IMG/VR virus record: IMGVR_UViG_3300009130_000010 | Span: 1-64,000 of that record | DNA from: a virus | Strand: one strand, 5' to 3' | DNA length: 64,000 nt | In this document: positions 1,839 through 53,755 of the stretch, one piece after another | Position numbering within the stretch: the first letter of the stretch is position 1 | Layout of the letters: each line of letters begins with the position of its first letter | Program-made: the position numbers and the translations under genes | The notes under the pieces: generated by a model | Seen by the model: only the letters and a program-made list of their open reading frames with translations | Told to the model about the DNA's origin: nothing | The model's database searches: none

Positions 1839-3410
1839 TTATATAACTACAAAAGGCATTGGCTCAATAAAGTCATCTTCACTTGATCTCATATCTTTTT
1901 GTATACTAGGGTCGTATGTTCCTAAAAATACAGCAATTCTCAAAGCCAAAACAAGAGCCATAACTAAATCGTCATGTTCTCCTGGCTTACTTTGGTAGCT
2001 ATTACCACTCGCTACAAATGTTTTTAACTGTGATATAAGAGGTTTACTATGAACTACTAGCTTTTGATTTTCTACTAGTTCTTTTAACTTGGCACAAGAA
2101 GCCAATTTACTTTTATGTGTTGTATTAAATCCTTTTCTAAAGCGTCTAACGTGACCGCTTCTAGCAGGTTCACTCATAAAATATCCATGGATTGCTTCTT
2201 CGCCTACTTCTGCTATAGAAACTAGGGCCGCCTCTCCTAGCGTATTGTTTTCTACGCTGTAATAGATATTATTATTATCATTTGTAATGCCATAGATATA
2301 TTTTGTAATCTGTTTTAAAATAGTTATTTGTTCTTGTATTGTTGTTTTATTATGTTGCCATTCAGCACATTGTTTCATACCTGGTAATTCAAATACTTGA
2401 ATAGCACTATAGTCACCACCTGTACCTAAACTTGGATCTAATCCAAGCACATACGTCATTCCTTTTCTAGGTTTATGATACCAACGTACTTGTCCTTGTT
2501 TATATAAAGGTTCATGTCCTTCTAAACTTGCTAATATAATTGGGTTGATTAGCGTCTCGTCAAATATGATAGGCTCACATTCGTGTTCACGTTTGAACCT
2601 TTCAATTCCTATTCTTCCTCGCTCATCTTCAGCCCATTTTTTATCTCTATCAGGATGTTCATCCCATAAAGCCTTAAAGGCATGGAACCCGTTAACACCA
2701 ACTTCATTAGCATTACCAAAGTTATCTAAAATTTTATTTGCTTCAGTCCATAATAACCAAAACTGGTCTTCGTCTGAATTTGGTGTAGAAGTAATAATCG
2801 CTTTACCACCTGTTGCTAGTGTAGGTGAAATAGAAGTCCAAAATTCTGTTGCTATGTTATTTCGCACAAAGGCAAACTCATCACAATATAATAATGTAAT
2901 GGACATACCTCTTCCTGTATTTTCTGTAGTCGCTTGTGATACAATTCTACTACCGTTCTCAAATTCAATTGATCCTCTATTGTAATTTGTAACACCTGCC
3001 CTAATATAATCAGGACAAAGTTCATATCCATATCTAATACGTTGCATAATTTCTTGGGCGCCAGCGTATTTGTGTGCCGCAATTAATATTACACTATCGG
3101 GAATAAACATAGCATACCATAATAAGTATCCAGCCGCTGTTGTAGTTTTACCCATTTGGCGACTTAACAAGTTTATACTAAATCTATTTTTATGGTAACT
3201 ATCTGTTAATAATTCTTGGAATGGGTACGGTTTATATAACAACTTTCCATCAACAGGATGTTGTATATGGAAATAATTTTCAAGAAAATGCTTTGGACCA
3301 CCAACAGGGTCGGCACAAGCCACAAAACTGTCAATTTGTTCTTTAGTAAACTGTTGACCTTTGTTAGCTTTTTTAACTAAAACACCATCTAAAGTTTTAT
3401 TACTGCTCAT
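1839..3410 (-). CDS. 17: Terminase large subunit gp17: packaging ATPase and nuclease
   Basis: Motor protein that pumps DNA into the prohead and cuts concatemers at headful. Visible: Walker A SRQMGKTT (residues 83-90), Walker B with catalytic Glu in LLYCDEFAF (about 173-181), the coupling segment ITSTPNS (about 206-212), and an RNase H-like nuclease domain starting at LGLDPSLGTGGDYSA (Asp335) with a C-terminal acidic pair GEHDDLVMAL. It has 523 residues against about 610 in T4; the N-terminal portion is shorter. It sits downstream of a small acidic gene, a head-protein gene and gp16, with a terminator just upstream, so it may have its own expression signal. Identification is firm from the motif set. 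Confidence 0.97.
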   Translation of the reverse strand: MSSNKTLDGVLVKKANKGQQFTKEQIDSFVACADPVGGPKHFLENYFHIQHPVDGKLLYKPYPFQELLTDSYHKNRFSINLLSRQMGKTTTAAGYLLWYAMFIPDSVILIAAHKYAGAQEIMQRIRYGYELCPDYIRAGVTNYNRGSIEFENGSRIVSQATTENTGRGMSITLLYCDEFAFVRNNIATEFWTSISPTLATGGKAIITSTPNSDEDQFWLLWTEANKILDNFGNANEVGVNGFHAFKALWDEHPDRDKKWAEDERGRIGIERFKREHECEPIIFDETLINPIILASLEGHEPLYKQGQVRWYHKPRKGMTYVLGLDPSLGTGGDYSAIQVFELPGMKQCAEWQHNKTTIQEQITILKQITKYIYGITNDNNNIYYSVENNTLGEAALVSIAEVGEEAIHGYFMSEPARSGHVRRFRKGFNTTHKSKLASCAKLKELVENQKLVVHSKPLISQLKTFVASGNSYQSKPGEHDDLVMALVLALRIAVFLGTYDPSIQKDMRSSEDDFIEPMPFVVI

Positions 3411-3490: not shown

Positions 3491-4090
3491 TTATTCCATA
3501 TCGTCGTATGATTTCTTTAATTTCATAACTATTCTGTTATGACCATCATTACCTACTGTTGGCATAGCTTTTGGTCTATTAATTCCACCTGATAATTTGT
3601 TTAATTGTGTATCAGCATCAGCATATTGCTCATCTGGTGAGTTAGAATATTCGTCAACTGGTTCAGCACCATCTTGTGGCTGATTAATATCAGCATCTGT
3701 AACAGGTTTTAGTCCTGCTAAATTTAGAAGTGTTGATAAAGTAGTTGTATCCATAGAAACCATTTCAGGTTGTTCTGTTACTTCTTCTTCAGCTACTTCT
3801 TCTTCAGCAACTGGTTTGTCTTTAACGACAGCAATAACAGGTGTTTCTTCTACTTTAACTATATCTTCAGAAACTTCTTCTTTAGTTTCTTCAACTGCTT
3901 CTTCTTTTGCTTCATCAGTAGTTTCATCAGCTTCTTCGACTGCTGAGTCATTGTCTGTTTCTTCTACTTCTTTAATTGTTTTTTTAAATTCTGATTCTTC
4001 TTTTGCTTCGTTTTTAGCGTACTCTTCTTCCTGAATTTCTCTAAAAAGACCAGCAACTTTATGTAAATCAATTAATTTATTGTCTTCCAT
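3491..4090 (-). CDS. Acidic, Glu/Thr-rich small protein between terL and the gp16 group
   Basis: 199 residues. The N-terminal ~35 residues (MEDNKLIDLHKVAGLF) look helical. Residues about 35-115 are extremely rich in Glu, Lys, Thr and Val, probably disordered. The C-terminal ~60 residues (LNKLSGGINRPKAMPTVGN) look more conserved and end in a basic stretch before YDDME. It starts two bases downstream of the preceding gene's stop and ends before a strong terminator, so it closes an operon running gp16, internal-head candidate, this gene. I do not recognise a function. Composition resembles phage head-core or internal proteins, but that is only an impression. Confidence 0.85.
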   Translation of the reverse strand: MEDNKLIDLHKVAGLFREIQEEEYAKNEAKEESEFKKTIKEVEETDNDSAVEEADETTDEAKEEAVEETKEEVSEDIVKVEETPVIAVVKDKPVAEEEVAEEEVTEQPEMVSMDTTTLSTLLNLAGLKPVTDADINQPQDGAEPVDEYSNSPDEQYADADTQLNKLSGGINRPKAMPTVGNDGHNRIVMKLKKSYDDME

Positions 4091-4092
4091 AA

Positions 4093-4647
4093 TTATCTCC
4101 CTGCCACCGGTGATTTTGTACCTTGTGGCAAATCACTAGTTGTTTTAGCTTTTTCTGTTGTACCGCCAGCAATTTCAATTTCAGGTGTTTCTTTTACATT
4201 ATTTAATTCTCTAATGAAACCTAATTTTGCTTCTGCTGGTGCTTCACCCGAAGCGTAATCGTTTCCAAGTTTTGTTTCATATTCTTGTCCTTGTGTTGCT
4301 ACTGCTTCTTCTCTAGCAATTTCTTCCGGGTGTTCGCTATTAATAACAACAACTTGGTTTCCAGGAATTCCTGCTAAATTTACTAAATCAGCATGAACAA
4401 CTTGAGGTGTACTTGGATATGTTAATGTAATTTCAAAAATTGTTACCTTGCTATTGCGAAGGTTTTGAAAGTCCATTGGGTGTTCTTGAATTGGCGTTAC
4501 TTTAGGAGCCGTGATATCTTTAACATCATACTTGCCTAGAACCCTTTCAATTAGGTCCATCAAATCAGGTTCAGCTTCTATTGCCAGTTTAACCTTAAAT
4601 TTATATTCTTTTATTGACTCTGTCAAGTATTCGTTAAATGACTTCAT
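4093..4647 (-). CDS. Candidate encapsidated internal head protein with T4-like capsid-targeting N-terminus
   Basis: An upstream ATG at 4659 would add MEIE, but GGAGA sits about six bases before the second ATG (4647), so I choose 4647 (184 aa). That start gives MKSFNEYLTES, which closely follows the T4 capsid-targeting sequence of internal proteins (MKTYQEFIAEA in IPIII). The LTE matches the gp21 protease rule (Leu/Ile)-x-Glu, predicting cleavage after residue 10. Residues ~12-110 alternate strand-like and helical segments (YKFKVKLAIEAEPDLMDLIE) in a small ferredoxin-like pattern. The tail is polar and Ala/Glu/Thr-rich. The targeting call is inference from a short motif plus the presence of gp21 in the same genome. 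Confidence 0.8.
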   Translation of the reverse strand: MKSFNEYLTESIKEYKFKVKLAIEAEPDLMDLIERVLGKYDVKDITAPKVTPIQEHPMDFQNLRNSKVTIFEITLTYPSTPQVVHADLVNLAGIPGNQVVVINSEHPEEIAREEAVATQGQEYETKLGNDYASGEAPAEAKLGFIRELNNVKETPEIEIAGGTTEKAKTTSDLPQGTKSPVAGR

Positions 4648-4670
4648 TTCAATCTCCATTTGTATTATAA

Positions 4671-5189
4671 CTATTTATTATCTTTTGTGTCATTTTTGCT
4701 AAGAATTCTCTCTAATAACTCGTTACGATTTAATATAGTTGCTTCGCCAGTTTCAGCACCATCACCTAGTTTACCCATATCACGGTCTATTCTAGCGTCT
4801 AAGGCCTTCTTACGAAGCTGTAATTCTACCATTTTTAGCTTTTTATCTATCTTAGCCTGCTTGGCATTCAATGTAATAGTTAACATTTTACTAGCTGTAT
4901 CAAATATTTGTCCACTAAATCTAGCTTCTACGTTCATACCTAAGTCCATTAGGTTATTAAAAGAATCTTCTGCCTTGCCGGCAATTTCATCCATTTCTTT
5001 ATCATTTGCTGTTAAATTCTCAACTCCTGCCAATGCTGATTCAATAGTATCTACTTGTTTTAACTCTTTTTCTACTTTATCTACTGTTTCCAAAGACTTA
5101 TGTGGATCAACCTCTTCAGGGAGAGCTGTACTATCATCTTTATCTACATTGGGGGCTATATTTAGAAGCTCTTCTAGTTTTTTTGTCAT
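4671..5189 (-). CDS. 16: Terminase small subunit gp16-like
   Basis: 172 residues, close to T4 gp16 (164). It has an acidic N-terminal segment beginning MTKKLEELLNIAP and a central pair of long helices (about residues 80-145, including FDTASKMLTITLNAKQAKID) of the kind that forms the gp16 ring core. The C-terminus is short and polar. Its role would be recognition and regulation of packaging by the large terminase. Support is the central-helix pattern, length, and position two genes from terL. No DNA-binding motif is obvious, as usual for T4 gp16. A late box and an AAGG precede the start. Confidence 0.75.
   Translation of the reverse strand: MTKKLEELLNIAPNVDKDDSTALPEEVDPHKSLETVDKVEKELKQVDTIESALAGVENLTANDKEMDEIAGKAEDSFNNLMDLGMNVEARFSGQIFDTASKMLTITLNAKQAKIDKKLKMVELQLRKKALDARIDRDMGKLGDGAETGEATILNRNELLERILSKNDTKDNK
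4672..4679 (-). promoter_or_regulatory. Late promoter box AATAAATA
   Basis: Reverse-strand AATAAATA overlapping the last codons of gp16. Predicted start lies five bases on, giving a leader of about 20 bases that contains the GGAG for the gene starting at 4647. Confidence 0.45.
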
Positions 5190-5214: not shown

Positions 5215-5222
5215 TATTTAGC
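5215..5222 (-). promoter_or_regulatory. Late promoter box GCTAAATA before gp16
   Basis: Reverse-strand GCTAAATA about 25 bases upstream of the gp16 ATG at 5189, with AAGG in the intervening leader. It overlaps the end of gene 4. Confidence 0.45.
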
Positions 5223-5664
5223 GACGGCGTTTTCCTTGATGAAACAAATCGTTTTCTGTTACTACCCTAAAACGTATACCTTTTTGTTTACACCAGGCTG
5301 TTGCGGCCTCCCATTTAGCCATATTTTGTACTACAGCCATTTGTCTATTTTTACTTTTACCAGCGGCTTCCATTGTGGATTGGTTACTAGGTTTAATTTC
5401 AACTACTTCAGTTCTTTTCTTACCTTTAGCATCTTGATACTGTACAAAAAAATCTGGTACATAAGTTGTTGTTTTACCAGTTAAAGGATTTTTATAAGGA
5501 ATTCGTACAGCTTCACTGGCCCAGCCTATAACACCGTGACTATTATCACAAAACGTCATAAAAGCGTGTTCCCAGCTTGATCTATAAATTGGTGTTTTTG
5601 TGCCGGCGTATTTGTCTGGATTCTTTAATGTGTATCGACCGCGGGCAACTCCCTTGCCTATCAT
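5218..5664 (-). CDS. 4: Head completion protein gp4
   Basis: 148 residues, the size of T4 gp4 (150). The N-terminus GRYTLKNPDKYAGTKTPIYR and the following RSSWEHAFM are the typical gp4 signature. The core carries a PD-(D/E)xK-like nuclease arrangement: YVPDFF (about residue 70) and VVEIKPSNQ (about 88-96). Gp4 acts after packaging to finish the head for tail joining. The start ATG overlaps the stop of the upstream gene by four bases, so the two are probably translationally coupled. Ends in a basic tail (GKRRR). Confidence 0.9.
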   Translation of the reverse strand: MIGKGVARGRYTLKNPDKYAGTKTPIYRSSWEHAFMTFCDNSHGVIGWASEAVRIPYKNPLTGKTTTYVPDFFVQYQDAKGKKRTEVVEIKPSNQSTMEAAGKSKNRQMAVVQNMAKWEAATAWCKQKGIRFRVVTENDLFHQGKRRR

Positions 5665-33378: not shown

Positions 33379-34551
33379 TTAGCTAAAGCTAATGTTAGAC
33401 ATTGCAATTTCACCCAAGTAGTCACCAGCATTACCAAGTGAAGATGCTGTGTTAGTTAACTCAACATATCCATATCTTGTCATAAAGCCAACAACTGGTT
33501 CTAATGTAGCTGGATCAAGCACAACGCCTGAGCTCATTAGAGGTACGTATGGGCAGTAGAACGCCGCCGCATCTGCTTCGCTTGAACCTTTGTATCCAAC
33601 TAGTACAGCTGAGTTATCAGCCGCATAAGTGTCAACGTAGATTTTCATAGCGCCATTCAATGTACCTACAAACTTGTTGTTTGTTGGTGCTTCAAATGAA
33701 CCTTCAGTTGTTCTTGCGAACGCTGAAGTAGAAGCAGACTGAAGTACTGTAAGAGCAAGTGGAGAAACCACAGCCCAGTTACCAGCACCACGTCTTGTTC
33801 TTTGTGCGATTTTATTAGCAACTCTGTTAATTAAAACAGCCAGAGCCGCGTGTTCATCACCAACGTAAGTAGCAGTACCGCTTACAGCCGCTTGGTTGTA
33901 AGTTTCTTCAGTAGCCGCTAATGATCTCAAAGAAGTAAGAACTTCTTGGTCGATCTCAGCAGTAATTTCTTGAGCCAGTGCGGCCATAATTTCTGCTTCA
34001 ACGTCGATTCCGTGCATTGATTGAGCATCTTGTGCCGATTCAAAAGTCCAACGAGCTGATAGCTTTCTTGTTTTAGCTTCAACAGGTTGCTTTAAAATCT
34101 GAATGTTCAATCTTTTACCTGCGTTACCCTCTAAAGCAGAAGTACTAGCACCTGCTCCTGGGTCACCGTCATTACCTGAGTAAGACTCAGCAATTTTAAA
34201 CGGACTTAATGCCTCGTCACCAGCGGCGATGTTTGTAGCACCACCAGTAGTAGCATCAGCATATCTCACACGAAGTGTGTGAATTTGGCCAACTGGACCT
34301 TGCATTGGTTGAACACCAACGATTTCGTTCGCGATCACAGTAGGCATAACACGTCTGATTACAGGTAGAATCACACGGTTTAGAGTAGCAACGTTGCCGG
34401 CAGATGTAGCGCCAGCCGTCGCCGCCTCTTTTAAGTAATTGCGGGTGTTTTCTAAAACAACACTCATAGTAGTTTTAGAAGAACCTTCTAAACCTTCCAT
34501 AAGAGCCGATTTAGTGTCATCCCAACGGCTTTCAATTAATGTATCTGACAT
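33379..34551 (-). CDS. 23: Major capsid protein gp23
   Basis: 390 residues, shorter than T4's 521. Signature blocks: NVATLNRVILPVIRRVMPTV (about residues 53-72), then LVGVQPMQGPVGQIHTLRV-like text, KTRKLSARWTFESAQD, and the C-terminal FMTRYGYVEL. A (Leu/Ile)-x-Glu site for gp21 is at YLKE (residues 39-42) followed by AATAG, giving a mature protein of about 348 residues. It forms the capsid hexamers. The missing length relative to T4 is consistent with a reduced insertion domain. Follows gp22 with AAAGGGAG before the ATG; strong terminator behind. Confidence 0.97.
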   Translation of the reverse strand: MSDTLIESRWDDTKSALMEGLEGSSKTTMSVVLENTRNYLKEAATAGATSAGNVATLNRVILPVIRRVMPTVIANEIVGVQPMQGPVGQIHTLRVRYADATTGGATNIAAGDEALSPFKIAESYSGNDGDPGAGASTSALEGNAGKRLNIQILKQPVEAKTRKLSARWTFESAQDAQSMHGIDVEAEIMAALAQEITAEIDQEVLTSLRSLAATEETYNQAAVSGTATYVGDEHAALAVLINRVANKIAQRTRRGAGNWAVVSPLALTVLQSASTSAFARTTEGSFEAPTNNKFVGTLNGAMKIYVDTYAADNSAVLVGYKGSSEADAAAFYCPYVPLMSSGVVLDPATLEPVVGFMTRYGYVELTNTASSLGNAGDYLGEIAMSNISFS

Positions 34552-34568: not shown

Positions 34569-35651
34569 TTACATTCCTGCCAATTTTCGAAGAAGAACAA
34601 TGTTATCCTCAGAATTTTGGCTAGTTTTATTAGATTTATTTCCAGTAACCTCTTTACGAGCTTCAGTAATAATCTTTTTACTTGGCGCTTCGTCTTTTAG
34701 TACTGCTGGCAAATATTTGTCGTAAGCTGATTGTATTTTATCAGTTGCGACGCTCTCGAGTAAACTATTCATTACTTCCGCCTGCTTGTTACCAAGTGGC
34801 TTCATTAATTCATTAAGTTTTGATTTTCTTTCGATACCCTCGTTAATTTTCTCAATTTTTGCCTTTTGAGTTTCAACTTCTTTAGCAGATGCTTCTGATT
34901 TCTCATTAGCTTCTTTTAATTGTTTGTCTTTATCAACTATTACTGCTTCTAAATCTTTCATTTCTTGATTTTCATTCAAGTAACTAGTAGAATATTCAGC
35001 GGCAAATGTTTCGAACAATTTACGTCCAAAGTTATTTTCACGAGCTTGTTTGATATCTTCTTTGAGTTGAGTTAGTTCATCCTTCAAAGAACCTGTTACA
35101 GCTTCTTTAACAAGTTTGCTTGATTTCTCTATGAATTTCTTCTTAAGATTATCTAATTGATCTTTTGCTTCAGATACTAATTTAACTTTAGTTTCAATGA
35201 CGTCTTTCTTGTCTTTGTGGAACTCGTTAATTTCTTCAGCAAGATTATTAATTACAAACTTTTCAAGTTTTTCCATTGTAGCTTTCTGAGACTTACGATC
35301 TGATCTAAGTTCTGTAATTTCTTCAGCTAATTTCTTAACCATAAAACTATTAAACTTTTCAGAAGCTTCAGTCATTTTCGTATTAAACTTAACACGATCT
35401 TCAGCTAGTGCTTTCTTTTCAGCAACAACTTTGCTAATTTCAGCACTCAGGTGTTCTGTAACCATCTTGTCAAGAGCCTCAACCATTGTTTGTTTGTCAT
35501 GCTCGTAACGACCTGCGAACTCCTCACGGAGGTCTTGACGAACCTCTTCACGGATTTCCTCTAACTTGGTATCCCAAGCTTCAGTAATCTGCTTACGAGT
35601 TTCTTCATTTACTAAATCGCTATCTAGCAATGGTTTGATGACTTCTAGCAT
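34569..35651 (-). CDS. 22: Prohead scaffold core protein gp22
   Basis: 360 residues from ATG 35651, with AGGAG nine bases upstream; an in-frame TTG at 35660 abuts that site and is rejected. Almost entirely charged coiled-coil (for example EEIREEVRQDLREEFAGRYE and LVSEAKDQLDNLKKKF), as expected for the scaffold that is later degraded by gp21. Possible gp21 sites of (L/I)-x-E type are numerous. The C-terminus VLLRKLAGM is conserved in style with other marine gp22. Lies between gp21 and gp23 as in T4. Confidence 0.92.
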   Translation of the reverse strand: MLEVIKPLLDSDLVNEETRKQITEAWDTKLEEIREEVRQDLREEFAGRYEHDKQTMVEALDKMVTEHLSAEISKVVAEKKALAEDRVKFNTKMTEASEKFNSFMVKKLAEEITELRSDRKSQKATMEKLEKFVINNLAEEINEFHKDKKDVIETKVKLVSEAKDQLDNLKKKFIEKSSKLVKEAVTGSLKDELTQLKEDIKQARENNFGRKLFETFAAEYSTSYLNENQEMKDLEAVIVDKDKQLKEANEKSEASAKEVETQKAKIEKINEGIERKSKLNELMKPLGNKQAEVMNSLLESVATDKIQSAYDKYLPAVLKDEAPSKKIITEARKEVTGNKSNKTSQNSEDNIVLLRKLAGM

Positions 35652-35656
35652 ATTGG

Positions 35657-36289
35657 TCAACTCCTAACTTTTAAGTCTTGGATGAGTTTTAATACTTCAT
35701 CCTTTAAGTATTTCTGTACCATATTATCATGCTGTGCCTCTTTAGCAATTTCTAAAACTTTATGACCATGTTTCATGTTCAAAAGTCCTTCGTATATTGC
35801 CTGAGGGTAGGCATTAGGTGCAGAAGGTTGAGCTACGACATCTATCGTAACTATCTCGAATTCGCTCACCTGTCCGGTGGCTTCATTGACGTTGCCGCTT
35901 CCGCGACTTGATACCCCTAATTTAACACCACTGTCTAACATAGTTTTCACTAGTTGTCCCATTGGCGTGGGTAAAATCTTTAACTTACCAAATCCGTTTG
36001 GACCATCCATCCACATACTTTCTACTAGGTGGCATACTCTTTCCAGGTTAACTTGTAACCCTTCAGGATGATCAACTTCGCCAAGCACACTATTGCCTGT
36101 CTGGACTTGATCGTTTAATTTCTTAACTGCCGAAGCAATTTCATTCACAGGATATACTCTTTCATTGGCGTTTTTAACTCCGCCTTGAATACAAATCCCT
36201 TTCATGTACAAGTCTTTGCCTTCGTTAGCGGACTCAACTATTAAGCCTGCTTGATCGAATGTTAAATTTTCTTGTAATAAAGGTTTCAT
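35657..36289 (-). CDS. 21: Prohead maturation protease gp21
   Basis: 210 residues, same as T4 (212). The active-site His is in GEVDHPEG (His74) and the nucleophile in GVKLGVSSRGSG (Ser127/128), the herpes-assemblin-like serine protease arrangement. It degrades the scaffold and trims gp23 and internal proteins after (Leu/Ile)-x-Glu. It is encoded directly upstream of gp22 with five bases between the genes. Its presence supports the predicted cleavage in gp23 and in the 184-aa candidate internal protein. Confidence 0.95.
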   Translation of the reverse strand: MKPLLQENLTFDQAGLIVESANEGKDLYMKGICIQGGVKNANERVYPVNEIASAVKKLNDQVQTGNSVLGEVDHPEGLQVNLERVCHLVESMWMDGPNGFGKLKILPTPMGQLVKTMLDSGVKLGVSSRGSGNVNEATGQVSEFEIVTIDVVAQPSAPNAYPQAIYEGLLNMKHGHKVLEIAKEAQHDNMVQKYLKDEVLKLIQDLKVRS

Positions 36290-36302: not shown

Positions 36303-37247
36303 TTACTTTGTAACTGGTTTTGGTGCTGGTTTTAAAGCCTGCTTACCGCCGCCTTTTGTACCTGTGTTACCTGCATCTTCGATTTTTGGAGATGCCGCTT
36401 TAGCACCTTTTTCTTCAGCTGAACCTTTTGCGATATTACCGGCAGAGCCGCCCATATCATTTTTACCAGCAACTGGTCCACCTTTGCCGTCGCCTTCTTC
36501 TGAAGTTACTGGAGCAGGTGCTTTTGTTTTGTACTCAACAACCTTCTCTTTAGCTTCGTCAACAGCTTCGTCATCTGATGCTTCTTCGACTGCTTCGTCT
36601 TCTTTTGTTTCTGGAACAATTGACTCTTCAGGAGCAATTTCTGGCTCCATCTCTGGGTCCATTGCTGGCTCCATGTCATCAGCTGGTGCTTCTTCGTCAT
36701 CAGCAGGTGCTTCTTCTTTACCAGTCATTTGTTCAAATTCGCTTCTTAAATCATCAATAGCAGTTTGAAGATCTAAAATTTCGTCTTCCATGCGTTCAGC
36801 ATCGTCGTCATCCATTTTAGCTTCGCCTTCTTCACCACCATCAACACCAAGTTCGTCAGCTATATCACCAGCATCTGATTCAGGATCTTCATCGTCGTCA
36901 TCATCTTCTGATTTTATGCCAACTTCGTCAGCTTTAATATCGGCAACCATGTCAGCAGTTTCGTCATCGGAAAAGTGTTCTTCAACTTTTTCGTCTGATG
37001 CTTCTTCTACTTCATCGGTTGATTCTTTTGTTTCGTCGGCTTCTTCAACTTTTTCATCTTCATCTTTAGCTTCTTCGACTTCGTCTTCTTTTGAAGCTTC
37101 ATCGATATCAGCAAGATCTTCTTCGTCGATTAAATTTTCGTAAATTTTACGAGATTCATCAACCGCGATCTCATGAAAAAGTTCTTTAGCCTTATCTTCT
37201 TCCTCGTTAACTACTAATTCAACGAGAGATTTCCATTTGTCATTCAT
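36303..37247 (-). CDS. Acidic prohead core protein (gp67/gp68-like)
   Basis: 314 residues. The N-terminus (WKSLVELVVNEEEDKAKELF, then AVDESRKIYENLIDEEDL) has the helix pattern of gp67/gp68 core proteins. The rest is extremely acidic (runs of Asp/Glu between residues 40 and 240), and the tail is Lys/Gly/Pro-rich. T4 places gp67 and gp68 between gp20 and gp21, exactly this position. Much larger than gp67 (80) or gp68 (141). Long ~50-base leader with a late box; AAAGGAG before ATG. Confidence 0.8.
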   Translation of the reverse strand: MNDKWKSLVELVVNEEEDKAKELFHEIAVDESRKIYENLIDEEDLADIDEASKEDEVEEAKDEDEKVEEADETKESTDEVEEASDEKVEEHFSDDETADMVADIKADEVGIKSEDDDDDEDPESDAGDIADELGVDGGEEGEAKMDDDDAERMEDEILDLQTAIDDLRSEFEQMTGKEEAPADDEEAPADDMEPAMDPEMEPEIAPEESIVPETKEDEAVEEASDDEAVDEAKEKVVEYKTKAPAPVTSEEGDGKGGPVAGKNDMGGSAGNIAKGSAEEKGAKAASPKIEDAGNTGTKGGGKQALKPAPKPVTK

Positions 37248-48325: not shown

Positions 48326-48916
48326 CTATTTCTTCGTTTTCTCCCAAACTACCATGTTATGATACTTTTTTTCACCTTCTGGTGTGGTTATACTATGTAC
48401 TTTTTCAATACTAACAACTTTTAAATCAGTCTGTTTTTCCCAACCACCTTCTGTTATCCAATCTTTTGGAGTTATACACATACTACAATATAGTAACCCG
48501 TCGTCAGTTAAACTATCAGCTATATGCTTTGAAGCACTAGCATCAACGTGTCCAAATGTTAGTACGCCAATTGCTGTTAAGCATTTATATTTTTGTGGTA
48601 ATGGTGCTTTAGTTATATCGTGTATCTTAGTAGTTCTATAATTACCTGCCACAAATCTATTAAGCATAGGTTGATTTAAATCGTAACCATCAATTAAGTA
48701 TTTGTGATTTATTAATCCAAGTCCTACTTGACCGTTTCCACAACCAATGTCTCCTACTTCTGTTCCTTCTAGAAAATTATCTATAATCCAATTAGAAGCA
48801 ATAGTATGACATACCCATCCTCGTTCATTTATAACTTCGTCATGATAGTTATCCCAACCATCATACAATTCGCTATTACTTTTTTTATAAATTTCGTCTA
48901 ACCAATAATCAGTCAT
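48326..48916 (-). CDS. SAM-dependent class I methyltransferase
   Basis: 196 residues. Motif I is GDIGCGNGQVGLGL (about residues 55-68), and DGYDLNQPML (about 77-86) supplies the acidic residue for the ribose; IGVLTFGHVD (about 116) fits motif IV. It would methylate a small molecule or macromolecule; the substrate is not visible. It is the last gene of the metabolic cassette and overlaps the nitroreductase stop by eight bases, so the two are probably coupled. Confidence 0.88.
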   Translation of the reverse strand: MTDYWLDEIYKKSNSELYDGWDNYHDEVINERGWVCHTIASNWIIDNFLEGTEVGDIGCGNGQVGLGLINHKYLIDGYDLNQPMLNRFVAGNYRTTKIHDITKAPLPQKYKCLTAIGVLTFGHVDASASKHIADSLTDDGLLYCSMCITPKDWITEGGWEKQTDLKVVSIEKVHSITTPEGEKKYHNMVVWEKTKK

Positions 48917-49598
48917 AATATTTTACCATGTCATTTAGGTTTTCTCTAGCTGTTCGATATTTGTTAATTATGTTTTTAGTATCTTCGTATCCAATACTCA
49001 TACCACACAATACAATTTTTTCTTTATACTCAGGTAATTCTTGTCTTACTATATCAGCATACTCTCCTAATGACCCCTGTGGACAGGTTGCCAGGCCATG
49101 TTCAACAGCTGACAACATAATCGACTGTATAAACATACCATAGTCTACATAAGAACCTTTGCCTAATGCTCTGTCAATAAAAAATAATAACATAACAGGA
49201 GCATCAAACCCTCTATAATTTTTAGCATATAACAAATTTTTACGTTCTGTCATTTCTCTAGTAATACCTAGTTGATTATATAAAGCTAATCCACATTCTT
49301 TTCTTCGTTGCTTATACTCTCCAAACCATTCAGCATCTTTTTCACTAAACTTATCAAATGGATAATACTCGTAATCCATAACAGGTGTTATACCAGAACT
49401 AAATGCTTCTTCTAATTTGTTACATAAATTATTTTTTGACGTACCTGTAAGTACAGCTACTTGCCAAGGTTGATGATTATCACCACTTGGTGCTTGTTTG
49501 GCTTGCTCTAATATTTTGTTTATAGTATCAATAGAAACTTCTTTATTTAAAAAAGCTCTTGTTGACTTACGAGTTGCTAAAGCATCACTAACTATCAT
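48909..49598 (-). CDS. Nitroreductase-family FMN oxidoreductase
   Basis: 229 residues. Family signature: ATRKSTRAFLNKEV with Arg-x-Ser-x-Arg (about residues 8-14), then APSGDNHQPWQVAVL (about 36-50) for FMN binding, then GLATCPQGSL, and a C-terminal SIGYEDTKNIINKYRTAREN. These bind FMN and reduce nitro, quinone or enone-type groups, or oxidise azoline rings. It overlaps the ANL ligase stop by four bases. Partner substrate unknown; context suggests work on the product of the neighbouring ligase or dioxygenase. Confidence 0.92.
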   Translation of the reverse strand: MIVSDALATRKSTRAFLNKEVSIDTINKILEQAKQAPSGDNHQPWQVAVLTGTSKNNLCNKLEEAFSSGITPVMDYEYYPFDKFSEKDAEWFGEYKQRRKECGLALYNQLGITREMTERKNLLYAKNYRGFDAPVMLLFFIDRALGKGSYVDYGMFIQSIMLSAVEHGLATCPQGSLGEYADIVRQELPEYKEKIVLCGMSIGYEDTKNIINKYRTARENLNDMVKYYD

Positions 49599-51010
49599 AC
49601 TTCTGAATAATCCTTTACATTAACCTTAGAAATAATATGAGGAGGAAAACTATTTTTAACAATGGCAGGCAATTTACTTCTTTGAAATTTATTTGGACCA
49701 GAAAAATATAAATGTTCAGTTACATGATATATATCGTGTGGTCGTTTAGCCTTTTGAGCATTATCAGTAAAGTGTTTAGCTACATCATTAGCATTAGCTG
49801 TTCCTGTATATATTAAGTAATGAAGTTCATCTTGTTCGCAACTAGCAACATTTTCAACACCAGGAACTTCGAGTGCCAATGCTTCTACTAATCCTGTATA
49901 AATTTTTATACCACTTTTCATAAAGATAACATCATCAAACACTCTACCAGAATAATACCATGTACCATTTTCATCTCTAAACTTATCACCATCTGTTTGC
50001 CAATCTAGTGTTCCGTACTTGTACCAAAGTACGCCTTCTTTGTCAAGTTTTAACTCCCCGTTATAAAGATGTTTTGTAAATCCATAAAAGTTTTTTATTG
50101 GATCACCTGGTCTATAAACAGCAACTGAATGGCAATCTGCTTCTGTACTTGCCATCATATTGTAAATTGCTTTAAACTTAAATTTCTTTATAATACTTTT
50201 GAGAACTACTTCTGGTGTATGTCCTCCAGAACATTCCCAGTAATCTATAGGCCAATTGAAATCATCAGGACATTCATCAACTATCTTTTTAATAGCATTA
50301 GGATATGATATACAACAATTAGGTTTTGCTTTTACTATCTCCCCAGGTATATTATCTCCCCAATTTAAAAAATGTATACTACCACCTATTAAGTATATTC
50401 TTAACAAGTTATAAGGATTATAAGTAGCAGTAAATCCTGCTGTACAAAGAATTCTTGGTCGTTTATCTTTTGTAAATTCAGGTGCTATAGCAAATAAATG
50501 ATTAGTAGATGCCTGTGCTGTACATCCTAATAATGTCTGCCCATCTACAATAGCTTCTTCATGATCTTCGTAATCCCAAAAGAAAGGATACATTTCAAAA
50601 AACTCTTTAACTGTAGTTCCGCTTGTCATACCTCTATATATTTCTTTAGGATGTAATATAGTAGGTCCTGTTTCAGCTGGATCACTTAACATTGTTATTT
50701 TATTAGAACGTATAATACAAGTTGCTTTACAACCTTTAATCAATCCTTCACGCTCCATCTTAGATTGTCTAGCGTCAGCCTGTGTAGCTGATCCACCGTT
50801 TTTAATACTAGCAAGTATCCATAAGTAATCATCTATTGTAACTTGATCTTCTGCTATTACAAAAACAACGTGTGGTCCTATACCATGCTCTTTAAGTCTT
50901 TTAATTTTAGCATCTAAATTATCGTGTAACTCTCCCCAAGTAATTTGTTCAGTAGAATTACTTAAAAAAATATCATCTTCACTGAGAGGTCCTTGTGTTT
51001 GTTTTAACAT
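49595..51010 (-). CDS. Adenylate-forming (ANL) ligase
   Basis: 471 residues, somewhat short for the family (typically 500-600). Motifs: GMTSGTTVKEF (about residues 127-137) as phosphate loop, YNMMASTEA (283-291) for the A5 region, WQTDGDKFRDENGTWYYSGR (337-356) containing the ATP-binding Asp, and FDDVIFMKSGIKIY (358-371). The C-terminal Lys is likely in SGPNKFQRSKLP. It activates a carboxylate to an acyl-AMP, then thioester or amide. The start has AAGGAATAAT before ATG. One base separates it from the dioxygenase-like gene. Confidence 0.88.
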   Translation of the reverse strand: MLKQTQGPLSEDDIFLSNSTEQITWGELHDNLDAKIKRLKEHGIGPHVVFVIAEDQVTIDDYLWILASIKNGGSATQADARQSKMEREGLIKGCKATCIIRSNKITMLSDPAETGPTILHPKEIYRGMTSGTTVKEFFEMYPFFWDYEDHEEAIVDGQTLLGCTAQASTNHLFAIAPEFTKDKRPRILCTAGFTATYNPYNLLRIYLIGGSIHFLNWGDNIPGEIVKAKPNCCISYPNAIKKIVDECPDDFNWPIDYWECSGGHTPEVVLKSIIKKFKFKAIYNMMASTEADCHSVAVYRPGDPIKNFYGFTKHLYNGELKLDKEGVLWYKYGTLDWQTDGDKFRDENGTWYYSGRVFDDVIFMKSGIKIYTGLVEALALEVPGVENVASCEQDELHYLIYTGTANANDVAKHFTDNAQKAKRPHDIYHVTEHLYFSGPNKFQRSKLPAIVKNSFPPHIISKVNVKDYSEV

Positions 51011-51011
51011 A

Positions 51012-51824
51012 TTATTCCTTAAAAATATTTGTGTAATCTAATGCTACACGCCAAAGTTCTCTACTTTTGTTTACAACAGGTGAACGTCTGTGTATAGTAT
51101 ACAATTGATCCATTAATAATAAATCACCTTTTTTAAATACAAAATGTTTTTGATAAATTGATCTGTCTAATGTTTTTTTATATTTTTCTTTTACAATATC
51201 TACGTTTACTGGCTCACCGTTTTGCCATGCTTTTTCTAACAATGGTGGTTGCCAATATAAAAACTCTTGCCCATCTACAGGATGTTTATTTACTGCTGGC
51301 ATACAGTCATCACCGTCGTGATGAATTGGCATAACGTAATCATCTAAACTTGTATCAACATTTGATTCTTCTTTTGACCCATATATACCATAACTACTAA
51401 AATTGTTTAACTGTATATCAATAGAACGCCAATAGTCTTTTTCTTTTTCAGGTAACTCATTAAAAGCATCTCTATTGTTTAATAAACTAAAAACAGTATC
51501 AGGACATTCTCCTACACAATATAAAGCAATTAGTATTTCTTTAAACTCACCTAAATGATGTATTGTGCCATTGGCGTGCCATTGTAGTTCTGTTTCTCCA
51601 AACAATCCACCTGGCATTACTCTTGCTATGTCTGGATTTTCTTTTGGGTTATAATGAAATTGTCCCATTGTATCGTCGTCTGTATTTCCTATACGTCTAC
51701 AATAGTCAACTAGTTGAGGTTGTGTTAAATTTTGTTCATGATGAAATGTATATCCATCTTTTAATACTTGTTGAATTTCTGATTTTAATTCTGAATCTGT
51801 ATATTCTAATACTTGTACAGTCAT
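51012..51824 (-). CDS. TauD/gamma-butyrobetaine-dioxygenase-like protein with altered metal triad
   Basis: 270 residues from ATG 51824 (AAAGGG before it; an in-frame GTG at 51833 lies inside that site). The fold order matches Fe(II)/2-oxoglutarate TauD-type oxygenases: LQWHANGTIHH (His83), then ALYCVGECPDTVFSLLNNRD, then LMDQLYTIHRRSP (distal His) and RELWRVAL (Arg for 2OG). The canonical H-x-D is H-A-N here (residues 83-85), so the usual Asp ligand is Asn. The protein could still be active with a different reaction or a changed ligand set. Gene context (betaine-type transport) is inferred. Confidence 0.82.
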   Translation of the reverse strand: MTVQVLEYTDSELKSEIQQVLKDGYTFHHEQNLTQPQLVDYCRRIGNTDDDTMGQFHYNPKENPDIARVMPGGLFGETELQWHANGTIHHLGEFKEILIALYCVGECPDTVFSLLNNRDAFNELPEKEKDYWRSIDIQLNNFSSYGIYGSKEESNVDTSLDDYVMPIHHDGDDCMPAVNKHPVDGQEFLYWQPPLLEKAWQNGEPVNVDIVKEKYKKTLDRSIYQKHFVFKKGDLLLMDQLYTIHRRSPVVNKSRELWRVALDYTNIFKE

Positions 51825-51857
51825 TGATAACACCCTTTACTATGCTTTAATTACTTA

Positions 51858-52724
51858 TTATTTCTTCCAACGATCATCACGTTTATTGTATGCTTGAACA
51901 ACTCTATCAATAATAATTGCTAAAGCAACTATTGACAATCCACTTATAACACCTAATCCTAAAAATTGATTTCCAACAGCGTTCATAACTTGTGACCCTA
52001 ACCCTCTAACACCAATCATTGATGCTATTACTACCATTGCCAGTGCCATCATTATTGTTTGGTTAATACCACCAAAAATTGTTGCTCTTGCTAACGGTAA
52101 TTCAACAAGAGCTAAAATATGTTTAGCTCGTAATCCTAATGCTTCTGCTGTTTCTATTAAATCTTTATTAATTTCTCGAATACCGATATTTGTAAATCTA
52201 ATTACTGGTGGCATAGCATAAAAACATATAGCAATTAAGCCAGGGACTTTGCCAAGTCCAAATAACATTATAACAGGAATTAGATATACAAAACTAGGAA
52301 TAGTTTGCATGAAATCAAGCATAGGTAAAATTATAGATTGTGCTTTATCTTTTTTTGCCATTAGTATTCCGAGAGGAATACCAAATGTAACACAAATAAA
52401 TGTAGATACAGAAACTATAGCTAAAGTTCTCATGGTATCATCCCACATACCAACTAAACCTATAGCTATAAAGGCAGTCAATGATCCTAAAATTATTTTC
52501 CAGTTTTTAGTAAGAACCCATATTAATAATCCTACTACTAATAAGAATACATAATATGGCGTTGCTAATAATAATTTTTCAAACCAAATAAGAAAATAGA
52601 GGAGTGGGGAAAGAAAGTCTTGGAAACTTTCTCCCCACGTACTAGCAAATTCTCTAAACGTACTGTCAATAAATTTCTTAATCGCTACTATGTTACTCTT
52701 TTCCAATGATGGAAAATTACTCAT
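51858..52724 (-). CDS. ABC transporter permease of the glycine-betaine/proline (ProW/OpuAB) type
   Basis: 288 residues with about six transmembrane segments (YYVFLLVVGLLIWVL, WKIILGSLTAFIAIGLVGMW, LAIVSVSTFICVTFGIPLGI and later ones). The EAA-type cytoplasmic loop is ETAEALGLRAKHIL with LPLARATIFGG. MPPVIRFTNIGI is typical of the ProW group. It would form the membrane channel for a quaternary-ammonium compound. The gene is five bases from the binding-protein gene. No ATPase subunit is visible in this window, so it would have to borrow a host one or one encoded elsewhere. Confidence 0.93.
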   Translation of the reverse strand: MSNFPSLEKSNIVAIKKFIDSTFREFASTWGESFQDFLSPLLYFLIWFEKLLLATPYYVFLLVVGLLIWVLTKNWKIILGSLTAFIAIGLVGMWDDTMRTLAIVSVSTFICVTFGIPLGILMAKKDKAQSIILPMLDFMQTIPSFVYLIPVIMLFGLGKVPGLIAICFYAMPPVIRFTNIGIREINKDLIETAEALGLRAKHILALVELPLARATIFGGINQTIMMALAMVVIASMIGVRGLGSQVMNAVGNQFLGLGVISGLSIVALAIIIDRVVQAYNKRDDRWKK

Positions 52725-52729
52725 AGCTA

Positions 52730-53755
52730 TTAATCAAGTGTTACGTTCAAGCCTAGCTTTTCAGCCGCCTCCGGCGTTACCCATTTAGACCAAGTTTCTT
52801 TATGTGATTTAAGAAACTCTATAGCAACGTCAGTTGGTGATGCTTGATTATCATTAGAATATATTAATAAAGTGTTTAATACATCACCTGGCATTTGCCT
52901 TTTAGATAGATAAACCATTACATCTGGATGAAGACCCGATGTAACTACTGTGGCAATAATTGTTTCTGGATATGCTGATGGCTTTGGTCCAATACATTCA
53001 TCATCAGGTAATGTTATACACTCCCAATTTTCTTGTCCAGCGAATTCAGTTTCAAAAGGAAGTTTTGACAATCCTAATTTACCTACTAATAATGTTGGTG
53101 ACCAGTAATAACCGAAAAAGTTTTCCTTTTTAGTTACAGCACCAGTCCAAGCGGCATCTAAACCTACACCAGATCCAGGGTTAATAAGTTTCCAGCCTTT
53201 TGCCTCCATATCAAATGCTTCGAATAAATTTTGATGTTGCATTTGACAAGCCCAGCCGTCAGGACAAATAGCAATTCCGCCTTTTGTCGCATCTTCTGGA
53301 TGTGGAAATAGTTCTGGATGTTCAAGTACCTTTTCAAAAGAAGTTAATTCCGGATGTGCTTCTAACACATAATCAGGAACATAAAATCCTTCACCAGCAC
53401 CTTCAATAACTCCTATACTTGCTGTAAGTAATTTACCTTCAGCTACAGCTTCGTCATATCCAGCACCTAAAAATGAAGTCCAAGCTTCACTAAAAATATT
53501 AGGTGACTCTGTGGCTAACATTGACGTAATAGTAGCTTCAGTTCCACCTGGAACTATTTCTACTTTATGTCCATAGCCTATTTTAAGTATTACAGTATCA
53601 ATATGAGCCAATATCGTTCCCGATGGCCAATTGAGTTCTGCTATTTTAATTTCGTCAGCTTTTGCTTGTGCTGTAAATAACCCGGCTGTTGAAACCATAG
53701 ATATAAACAGCATACTGACTATAATTAAGAAACGTTTAATGTGTTTGCTAGTCAT
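52730..53755 (-). CDS. Periplasmic glycine-betaine/proline-type binding protein (ProX/OpuAC family)
   Basis: 341 residues. Signal peptide from HIKRFLIIVSMLFISMVSTA to AKA-DE (about residue 33). The mature protein has the family's Trp-rich ligand box: ELNWPSGTI, EAWTSFLG, GWACQMQHQ, DAAWTG and YYWSPTLL. These aromatic residues usually cage a trimethylammonium group. The ligand could be glycine betaine, choline, carnitine, TMAO or related osmolytes. It begins 11 bases after the gp46 stop with AAAGGAG overlapping that stop, so it is cotranscribed with gp46. Confidence 0.94.
   Translation of the reverse strand: MTSKHIKRFLIIVSMLFISMVSTAGLFTAQAKADEIKIAELNWPSGTILAHIDTVILKIGYGHKVEIVPGGTEATITSMLATESPNIFSEAWTSFLGAGYDEAVAEGKLLTASIGVIEGAGEGFYVPDYVLEAHPELTSFEKVLEHPELFPHPEDATKGGIAICPDGWACQMQHQNLFEAFDMEAKGWKLINPGSGVGLDAAWTGAVTKKENFFGYYWSPTLLVGKLGLSKLPFETEFAGQENWECITLPDDECIGPKPSAYPETIIATVVTSGLHPDVMVYLSKRQMPGDVLNTLLIYSNDNQASPTDVAIEFLKSHKETWSKWVTPEAAEKLGLNVTLD

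Follow-up and report, generated by a model that had tools for sequence, protein, structure and literature searches.

A putative tag-recruited internal head protein in a marine relative of RaK2-like jumbo phages

Does a small protein encoded near the large terminase gene of a virus carry the address that would bring it into the phage head? The question arose at one locus of a 64,000-nucleotide stretch of DNA (IMG/VR record IMGVR_UViG_3300009130_000010, positions 1 to 64,000), called here the window. The reading favored here, with a probability of about 0.7, is that this is a late internal head protein recruited by its N-terminal tag, in a marine relative of RaK2-like jumbo phages. If so, a testable function would be given to a widespread jumbo-phage “virion structural protein”, and a ten-residue tag would be on offer for loading proteins into jumbo-phage heads. 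A shared origin of T4-type and RaK2-like internal head proteins would also be suggested.

Table 1. Features at the locus of the tagged protein and among the head genes of the window.
Feature	Position	Strand	Basis
Large terminase gp17, downstream	1839..3410	(-)	PF03237, PF17289
Acidic 199-aa neighbor between tagged gene and large terminase, pI 4.18	3491..4090	(-)	ORF reading
Predicted ferredoxin-like domain, residues 12-105	4333..4614	(-)	AlphaFold2, 36 sequences
L-T-E then S, codons 8-11, predicted gp21-type cleavage after E10	4615..4626	(-)	matches the T4 L/I-X-E rule
Capsid-targeting-like tag MKSFNEYLTE, codons 1-10	4618..4647	(-)	conservation in 49 relatives
Shine-Dalgarno GGAGA serving the second ATG	4653..4657	(-)	10 to 6 nt 5' of ATG 4647
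172-aa upstream neighbor	4671..5189	(-)	phrog_16202 (PHROG with no assigned function), main match
T4-late-promoter-like AATAAATA	4672..4679	(-)	TAAATA match
gp4-like head-closure protein	5218..5664	(-)	phrog_218
Major capsid protein gp23	33379..34551	(-)	PF07068
Candidate cleavage of gp23 between LKE42 and A43	34434-34423	(-)	gp23 alignment
gp22-position core/scaffold protein	34569..35660	(-)	between gp21 and gp23; many L/I-x-E sites
Prohead protease gp21, Peptidase_S77	35657..36289	(-)	PF03420, E 2.1e-25
Very acidic prohead-core-like protein, pI 4.05	36303..37247	(-)	position, charge

Gene, start codon and neighborhood

The open reading frame 4093-4659 (-) is real, and its second ATG, at 4647, is the true start. 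The gene of the tagged protein occupies 4093..4647 (-), and its 184-residue product begins MKSFNEYLTES. No GGAGA-type site lies upstream of the first ATG (4659). Relatives were collected with a mid-protein pattern (P[MLI]DF...), the N-terminus being unused in finding them; the best 80 of 194 were kept, by a ranking that favors close relatives, and 49 of them are distinct. A Shine-Dalgarno-like core stands upstream of the second-ATG start in 49/49, and an in-frame upstream ATG is present in just 9 of these proteins. Within the corresponding 4-codon extension of the relatives, the first ATG is replaced by TGG in L007, L008 and L013 and is missing in L012 and L014/L015. The alignment of PHROG 14802 also starts at the second Met of the window protein. 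The preliminary description of this DNA had chosen the start with the proper GGAGA site, and these observations bear that choice out. It had also warned that calling the first ATG hides the tag. The same concealment is found in the records of Atu_ph07 gp113 (L017:6001-6756) and RaK2 ORF047 (L020:6013-6561), whose GenBank starts differ from the tag Met. The case illustrates how a targeting tag can be masked by start calling.

The AATAAATA element contains a TAAATA that we take to match the T4 late promoter consensus. TAAATA occurs at most 60 nt upstream of the gene in 49/49 relatives and in 4.1% (399/9800) of random 60-nt windows. Should the element act as a late promoter of the T4 kind, just a few nucleotides would separate the first ATG from the end of the mRNA.

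The surroundings are conserved. Upstream, the 172-aa neighbor and the gp4-like gene are each present in 48/49 relatives. Downstream, the 199-aa neighbor is found in 31/49 and terL in 30/49, where 33 relatives have more than 1.5 kb of downstream sequence. Among the named jumbo phages, terL comes after the tagged gene in the portion read for PA5oct, Atu_ph07 and Phosso and is absent from the portion read for CBB, RaK2, PBECO4, GAP32 and Vibrio 2.275. PA5oct has, at the place of the 199-aa gene, a 498-aa protein with a virion-detection note. The earlier placement of the gene between the terminase genes is not established. The large terminase is downstream, with the 199-aa gene between, and a small terminase upstream found no support. 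The 172-aa gene was considered for that role and rejected, given its main match; the record, 102,929 bases long, contained no match to PF11053 (DNA_Packaging), the T4 gp16 family, in a search for which 3 of 14 control genomes gave a signal below the cut-off. The protein annotated as “terminase small subunit” in Phosso matches terminase large-subunit PHROGs, and PMC3622015 counts T4 gene 16 among those that RaK2 lacks. Elsewhere in the window, positions 48326-53755 hold a host-like metabolic cluster, with a methyltransferase-like protein, a nitroreductase (PF00881), an AMP-binding enzyme (PF00501), a TauD-type dioxygenase (PF02668), and both the permease (PF00528) and the binding protein (PF04069) of a glycine-betaine-type transporter.

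The tag and its predicted processing

According to PMC9026906, the first 10 residues of IPIII are enough for incorporation in T4, targeting depends mainly on residues 4 and 7 of the tag and processing on residues 8 and 10, Asp at position 10 stops processing and leaves targeting intact, and gp21 cuts following L/I-X-E. The same register is seen in the window family. M1, K2, L8 and E10 are each present in 49/49 distinct relatives, position 4 is F in 37 and L in 12, and position 7 is Y in 48 and F in 1. Just after the tag, position 11 is S in 42, N in 6 and A in 1, while positions 3, 5, 6 and 9 are variable (1.7-2.4 bits). Leu8 is written with five synonymous codons and Glu10 and Tyr7 with two each, and these silent changes suggest that selection maintains the tag residues. 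The likeness of MKSFNEYLTES to the T4 targeting tag, the L-T-E site before S included, had been noticed from the window alone. It stood up to the comparison of the N-terminal ten residues among relatives that the preliminary description had suggested, the key positions 2, 4, 7, 8 and 10 being conserved in 49/49. This register match between the conservation in the family and the T4 mutational data is the main argument for the idea that the tag may act in capsid targeting. In the literature searched, with supplements outside that search, there was no published account of this tag in RaK2-like phages.

The motif is also specific to the family. Among 4637 distinct Met-starting stretches of at least 45 aa, taken from the window and the relatives' loci, M[KR]x[FYL]xx[FY][LI]xE has 46 matches, all 46 in this family; a looser motif has 52, of which 3 lie outside it. 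The tag DNA pattern was searched in 11 virus records (2,433,918 bases), three picked via this family and eight via the capsid protein, with the family present in 10 of the 11. All 8 of its matches fall where the family gene begins, on codon 1; the reversed pattern has 0 in the same records. A T4-type pattern search recovered T4 ipII and ipIII as expected. The strict motif revealed no other tagged genes in the window, L103 or L104, and the L8 pattern had 2 matches in 9 named genomes, one antisense inside a CBB helicase gene and one at JS98 orf135. The latter (L222:232-849) is a hypothetical protein that starts MKTYNEFLNES and may be an unrecognized internal head protein.

A short N-terminal amphipathic helix could resemble such a tag by chance and have no relation to capsid targeting. 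The tag is just ten residues long, and HMM support is weak without it; nevertheless, the concentration of 8/8 pattern matches at one gene in 2.43 Mb and the exact register with the T4 mutational data make a coincidence very improbable. Tag-based head targeting, by close analogy and probable descent, can be expected with good confidence.

The predicted cleavage site is less uniform among the named jumbo phages. The L-x-E is kept in 5 of 8, namely Atu_ph07 (MKTLQDYLTES), Vibrio 2.275 (MKDLNTILTES), CBB and GAP32 (both MNKLQKILTEL) and PBECO4 (MNRLQQILTEK). The cleavable Glu10 is missing in PA5oct (MKSFRDYYDAS), Phosso (MKNFYEYLSSV) and RaK2 (MINLQKILTDN), where residues 8-11 read YDAS, LSSV and LTDN, respectively. 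Of the loci L214-L220, seven in all, [LI]-x-E is retained in six, while L220 reads FLQDS, shifted by one residue. RaK2 and L220 thus carry Asp, the change that in T4 blocks processing. The hydrophobic pair at positions 4 and 7 is kept in 8/8 named phages, and since it is kept while Glu10 is lost, docking looks more general than cleavage.

The capsid protein bears on the specificity of the protease. The window encodes gp20 (PF07230 match) as well as gp21 and gp23, and residue 45 of its gp23 corresponds, in the alignment, to residue 15 of the mature T4 protein. Immediately ahead of the mature gp23 segment there is an L-x-E, with A, S, N, T or V as the next residue, in the window, in 7/7 named phages and in 29/29 loci, the gp23 N-termini of 29 of the 80 loci having been read. 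For PBECO4 gp23, a cut at L-x-E gives a computed change from 42.18 to 37.24 kDa; for 121Q gp23, PMC5646251 gives 42.2 kDa and, from SDS-PAGE, about 37 kDa. As L-x-E occurs at the expected cut in the gp23s of this clade, the motif at the end of the tag is very likely a target of the clade's gp21-type protease. Judged from these motifs, the cleavage site is absent in some lineages, and cleavage of the tag in the window phage is a likely prediction. At the extreme N-terminus of gp23 (34551-34528), a conserved LIES/LLES at residues 5-8 was also observed, beside L-x-E sites at residues 17-19 and 40-42. Neither the gp22-position protein nor the prohead-core-like protein has a Pfam match.

Presence in virions and place in the particle

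The profile of PHROG 14802, “virion structural protein”, matches 36/36 members of alignment A2, which holds the window protein and 35 of the 49 distinct relatives (P0002, E 3.1e-11). The homology spans residues 1-138, most of the window protein, which has no Pfam or NCBIfam match. In PMC5259590 (Table 4), CBB_210 is one of 55 proteins detected by mass spectrometry, with 13 unique peptides that cover 60.5% of it; the capsid protein reached 68.06%. CBB_210 is the gp210 homologue of the record, as the numbering agrees between the paper and the record for gp4 (208) and the sheath (204). The record of PA5oct gp282 carries an ESI-MS/MS note, and that of its gp22-position gp330 carries none. In phAPEC6, gp270 (16.2 kDa, 41.1% coverage) may be a family homologue with a late start. 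The preliminary claim of encapsidation is therefore supported in its virion-protein part, through relatives, by CBB_210 and PA5oct gp282. For the CBB homologue, the predicted peptide starting at residue 11 is LTPEYSYR, and the intact peptide spanning the site is ILTELTPEYSYR. 121Q and phAPEC6 hold an inner-body rod, whose proteins lack assignment in PMC5646251 and PMC7247149.

The mature window protein has a pI of 4.90, and its relatives are acidic in 47/47 cases (pI 4.49-5.41; L035 and L082, cut at contig ends, were excluded from full-length work), whereas T4 IPI-III and three Ip7s range from 8.98 to 9.65. Because the mature protein is acidic, DNA binding in the manner of the T4 internal proteins is unlikely. 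The acidity (47/47), the loss of E10 (3/8) and the conserved synteny oppose a simple reading as a T4 internal protein.

The protein could instead be a prohead core component: its tag would bind the core, and the protein would help in prohead construction or size determination, be retained or lost once gp21 has acted, and not serve as cargo for the host. This alternative shares its first steps with the favored reading; the protein has its acidity in common with the core-position proteins encoded here, and its gene is conserved rather than accessory. However, CBB_210 is found in mature virions at a coverage near that of the capsid protein (60.5 versus 68.06%), while T4 core proteins are mostly removed, according to PMC9026906. 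A role confined to the core seems unlikely, if not strongly so.

The neck genes next door would also fit a connector protein, which counts against the favored reading. In such a protein, the N-terminal helix would dock permanently on the portal or a gp4-type partner and remain uncut, with L-x-E as an interface. The conserved place beside gp4, the loss of E10 in 3/8 named relatives with the hydrophobic residues 4 and 7 staying in 8/8, the high coverage reported for CBB and the acidity all agree with it. It leaves unexplained why L8 and E10 are invariant (49/49) around a variable residue 9, and why the protein resembles Ip7 internal head proteins, so that we regard it as improbable.

For the tag-recruited internal head protein, the following course can be envisaged. 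Its gene would be expressed late, under a late promoter of its own. Folded as a short amphipathic helix, residues 1-10 would attach the precursor to the prohead core in the manner of the T4 tag, as their sequence and T4 genetics suggest. In most lineages, gp21 would then cut after E10 and free a mature protein of 174 residues, a ferredoxin-like domain with a disordered acidic tail, which would stay in the particle, as virion detection in relatives indicates. Ejection with the DNA is possible and is the weakest step; delivery of the protein into the host is rather doubtful. Given the acidity and the conserved place between gp4 and terL, an injected effector is no better an explanation than a structural protein of the head interior or core.

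Resemblance to Ip7 and comparison with known systems

What is new here is that the body of the protein, too, resembles Ip7 in the register of the tag. A tblastn search with the relative L038 gave, after true relatives, “ip7” internal head proteins of T4-type phages over residues 1-53 (E 0.004-0.09). The second family for A2 is phrog_2667, “internal head protein”, matched by 10 of its 36 members at E <=0.1 (best 4.4e-5), the window protein not being among the ten. This match disappears without the first 11 residues (0/7 proteins scanned), and the hhalign value for Ip7 falls from 75% with the tag to 2.8% without those residues. The tag thus carries both signals, and the link to Ip7 rests on weaker tests. 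In a gapless comparison in tag register, residues 12-42 scored z 4.3-5.9 against five Ip7s (0/1000 shuffles each), values that pool related sequences as one averaged profile and serve as a guide rather than a probability. The comparison covered 47/49 relatives, with L030 and L035 excluded for a two-residue insertion and one L117 residue skipped for register. T4 IPI, IPII, IPIII and JS98 orf135, which share the tag type alone, gave z -0.3 to -1.7, and other registers against Ip7 gave far lower scores.

The predicted structures point the same way. The AlphaFold2 model of the window protein (mean pLDDT 66, block means 73-88 between residues 11 and 100) has a helix at 4-10, a strand at 15-21, a helix at 27-40, strands, a helix at 81-92 and a strand at 99-103. 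The Ip7 model (mean pLDDT 67, tag below 50) has a helix at 4-9, a strand at 15-20, a helix at 27-39, strands, a helix at 64-69 and a strand at 75-79. With the window protein as a Foldseek query against viral models, Ip7 is at rank 10 (E 4.9e-4); with Ip7 as the query, the top matches of the window protein recur at ranks 2, 4, 5, 9 and 17 (E from 1.6e-3). A known fold with a function was also sought: with a best Z of 7.4 and a best E of 1.1e-3, the PDB matches (S6, ACT, HPPK) all have a ferredoxin-like fold of a common kind, from which no function was read. Since many proteins share this fold and neither model is more than modest, descent from a common ancestor is likely but falls short of proof. 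Sequence and model comparison make it probable that the precursor and Ip7 are divergent relatives. It is a speculative and, as a whole, unlikely extension that tag-based capsid targeting is ancestral to T4-type and RaK2-like jumbo phages, with the Ip7-like protein as an old conserved cargo whose acidic jumbo form would be a main internal protein (perhaps of the 121Q/phAPEC6 inner body) delivered to the host.

Among known systems, the RaK2-like members of PHROG 14802 (CBB_210, GAP32_204, 121Q 557, PA5oct gp282 and RaK2 ORF047) are homologues of the window protein, with 21-32% identity to it in alignment A1 and a common order of sheath, tube, gp4, coil and tagged gene. With the T4 internal-protein type of capsid-targeting sequence, it shares hydrophobic residues at 4, 7 and 8 and E10 (49/49); the T4 tags read MKTYQEFIAE in IPII and IPIII and MKTFKEF in IPI. 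The bodies of these three T4 proteins have no similarity to that of the window protein. T4-type internal proteins are usually, not strictly, basic, and those of T4 are basic, unlike the window protein. PMC3012670 describes the T4 internal proteins as diverse between phages, whereas the window gene is conserved and syntenic rather than variable and accessory. Ip7 (phrog_2667; JS98 gp112, VR26 ip7) has the tag MKTYQEFITE in the same register and the same predicted order of elements: a strand at 15-20 and a helix at 27-39, followed by two strands, a helix and a further strand. Ip7 is a basic protein of 99-102 aa and adjoins denV in JS98 and VR26; the family described here is acidic, 163-195 aa long, lies near gp4 and terL and has a disordered tail.
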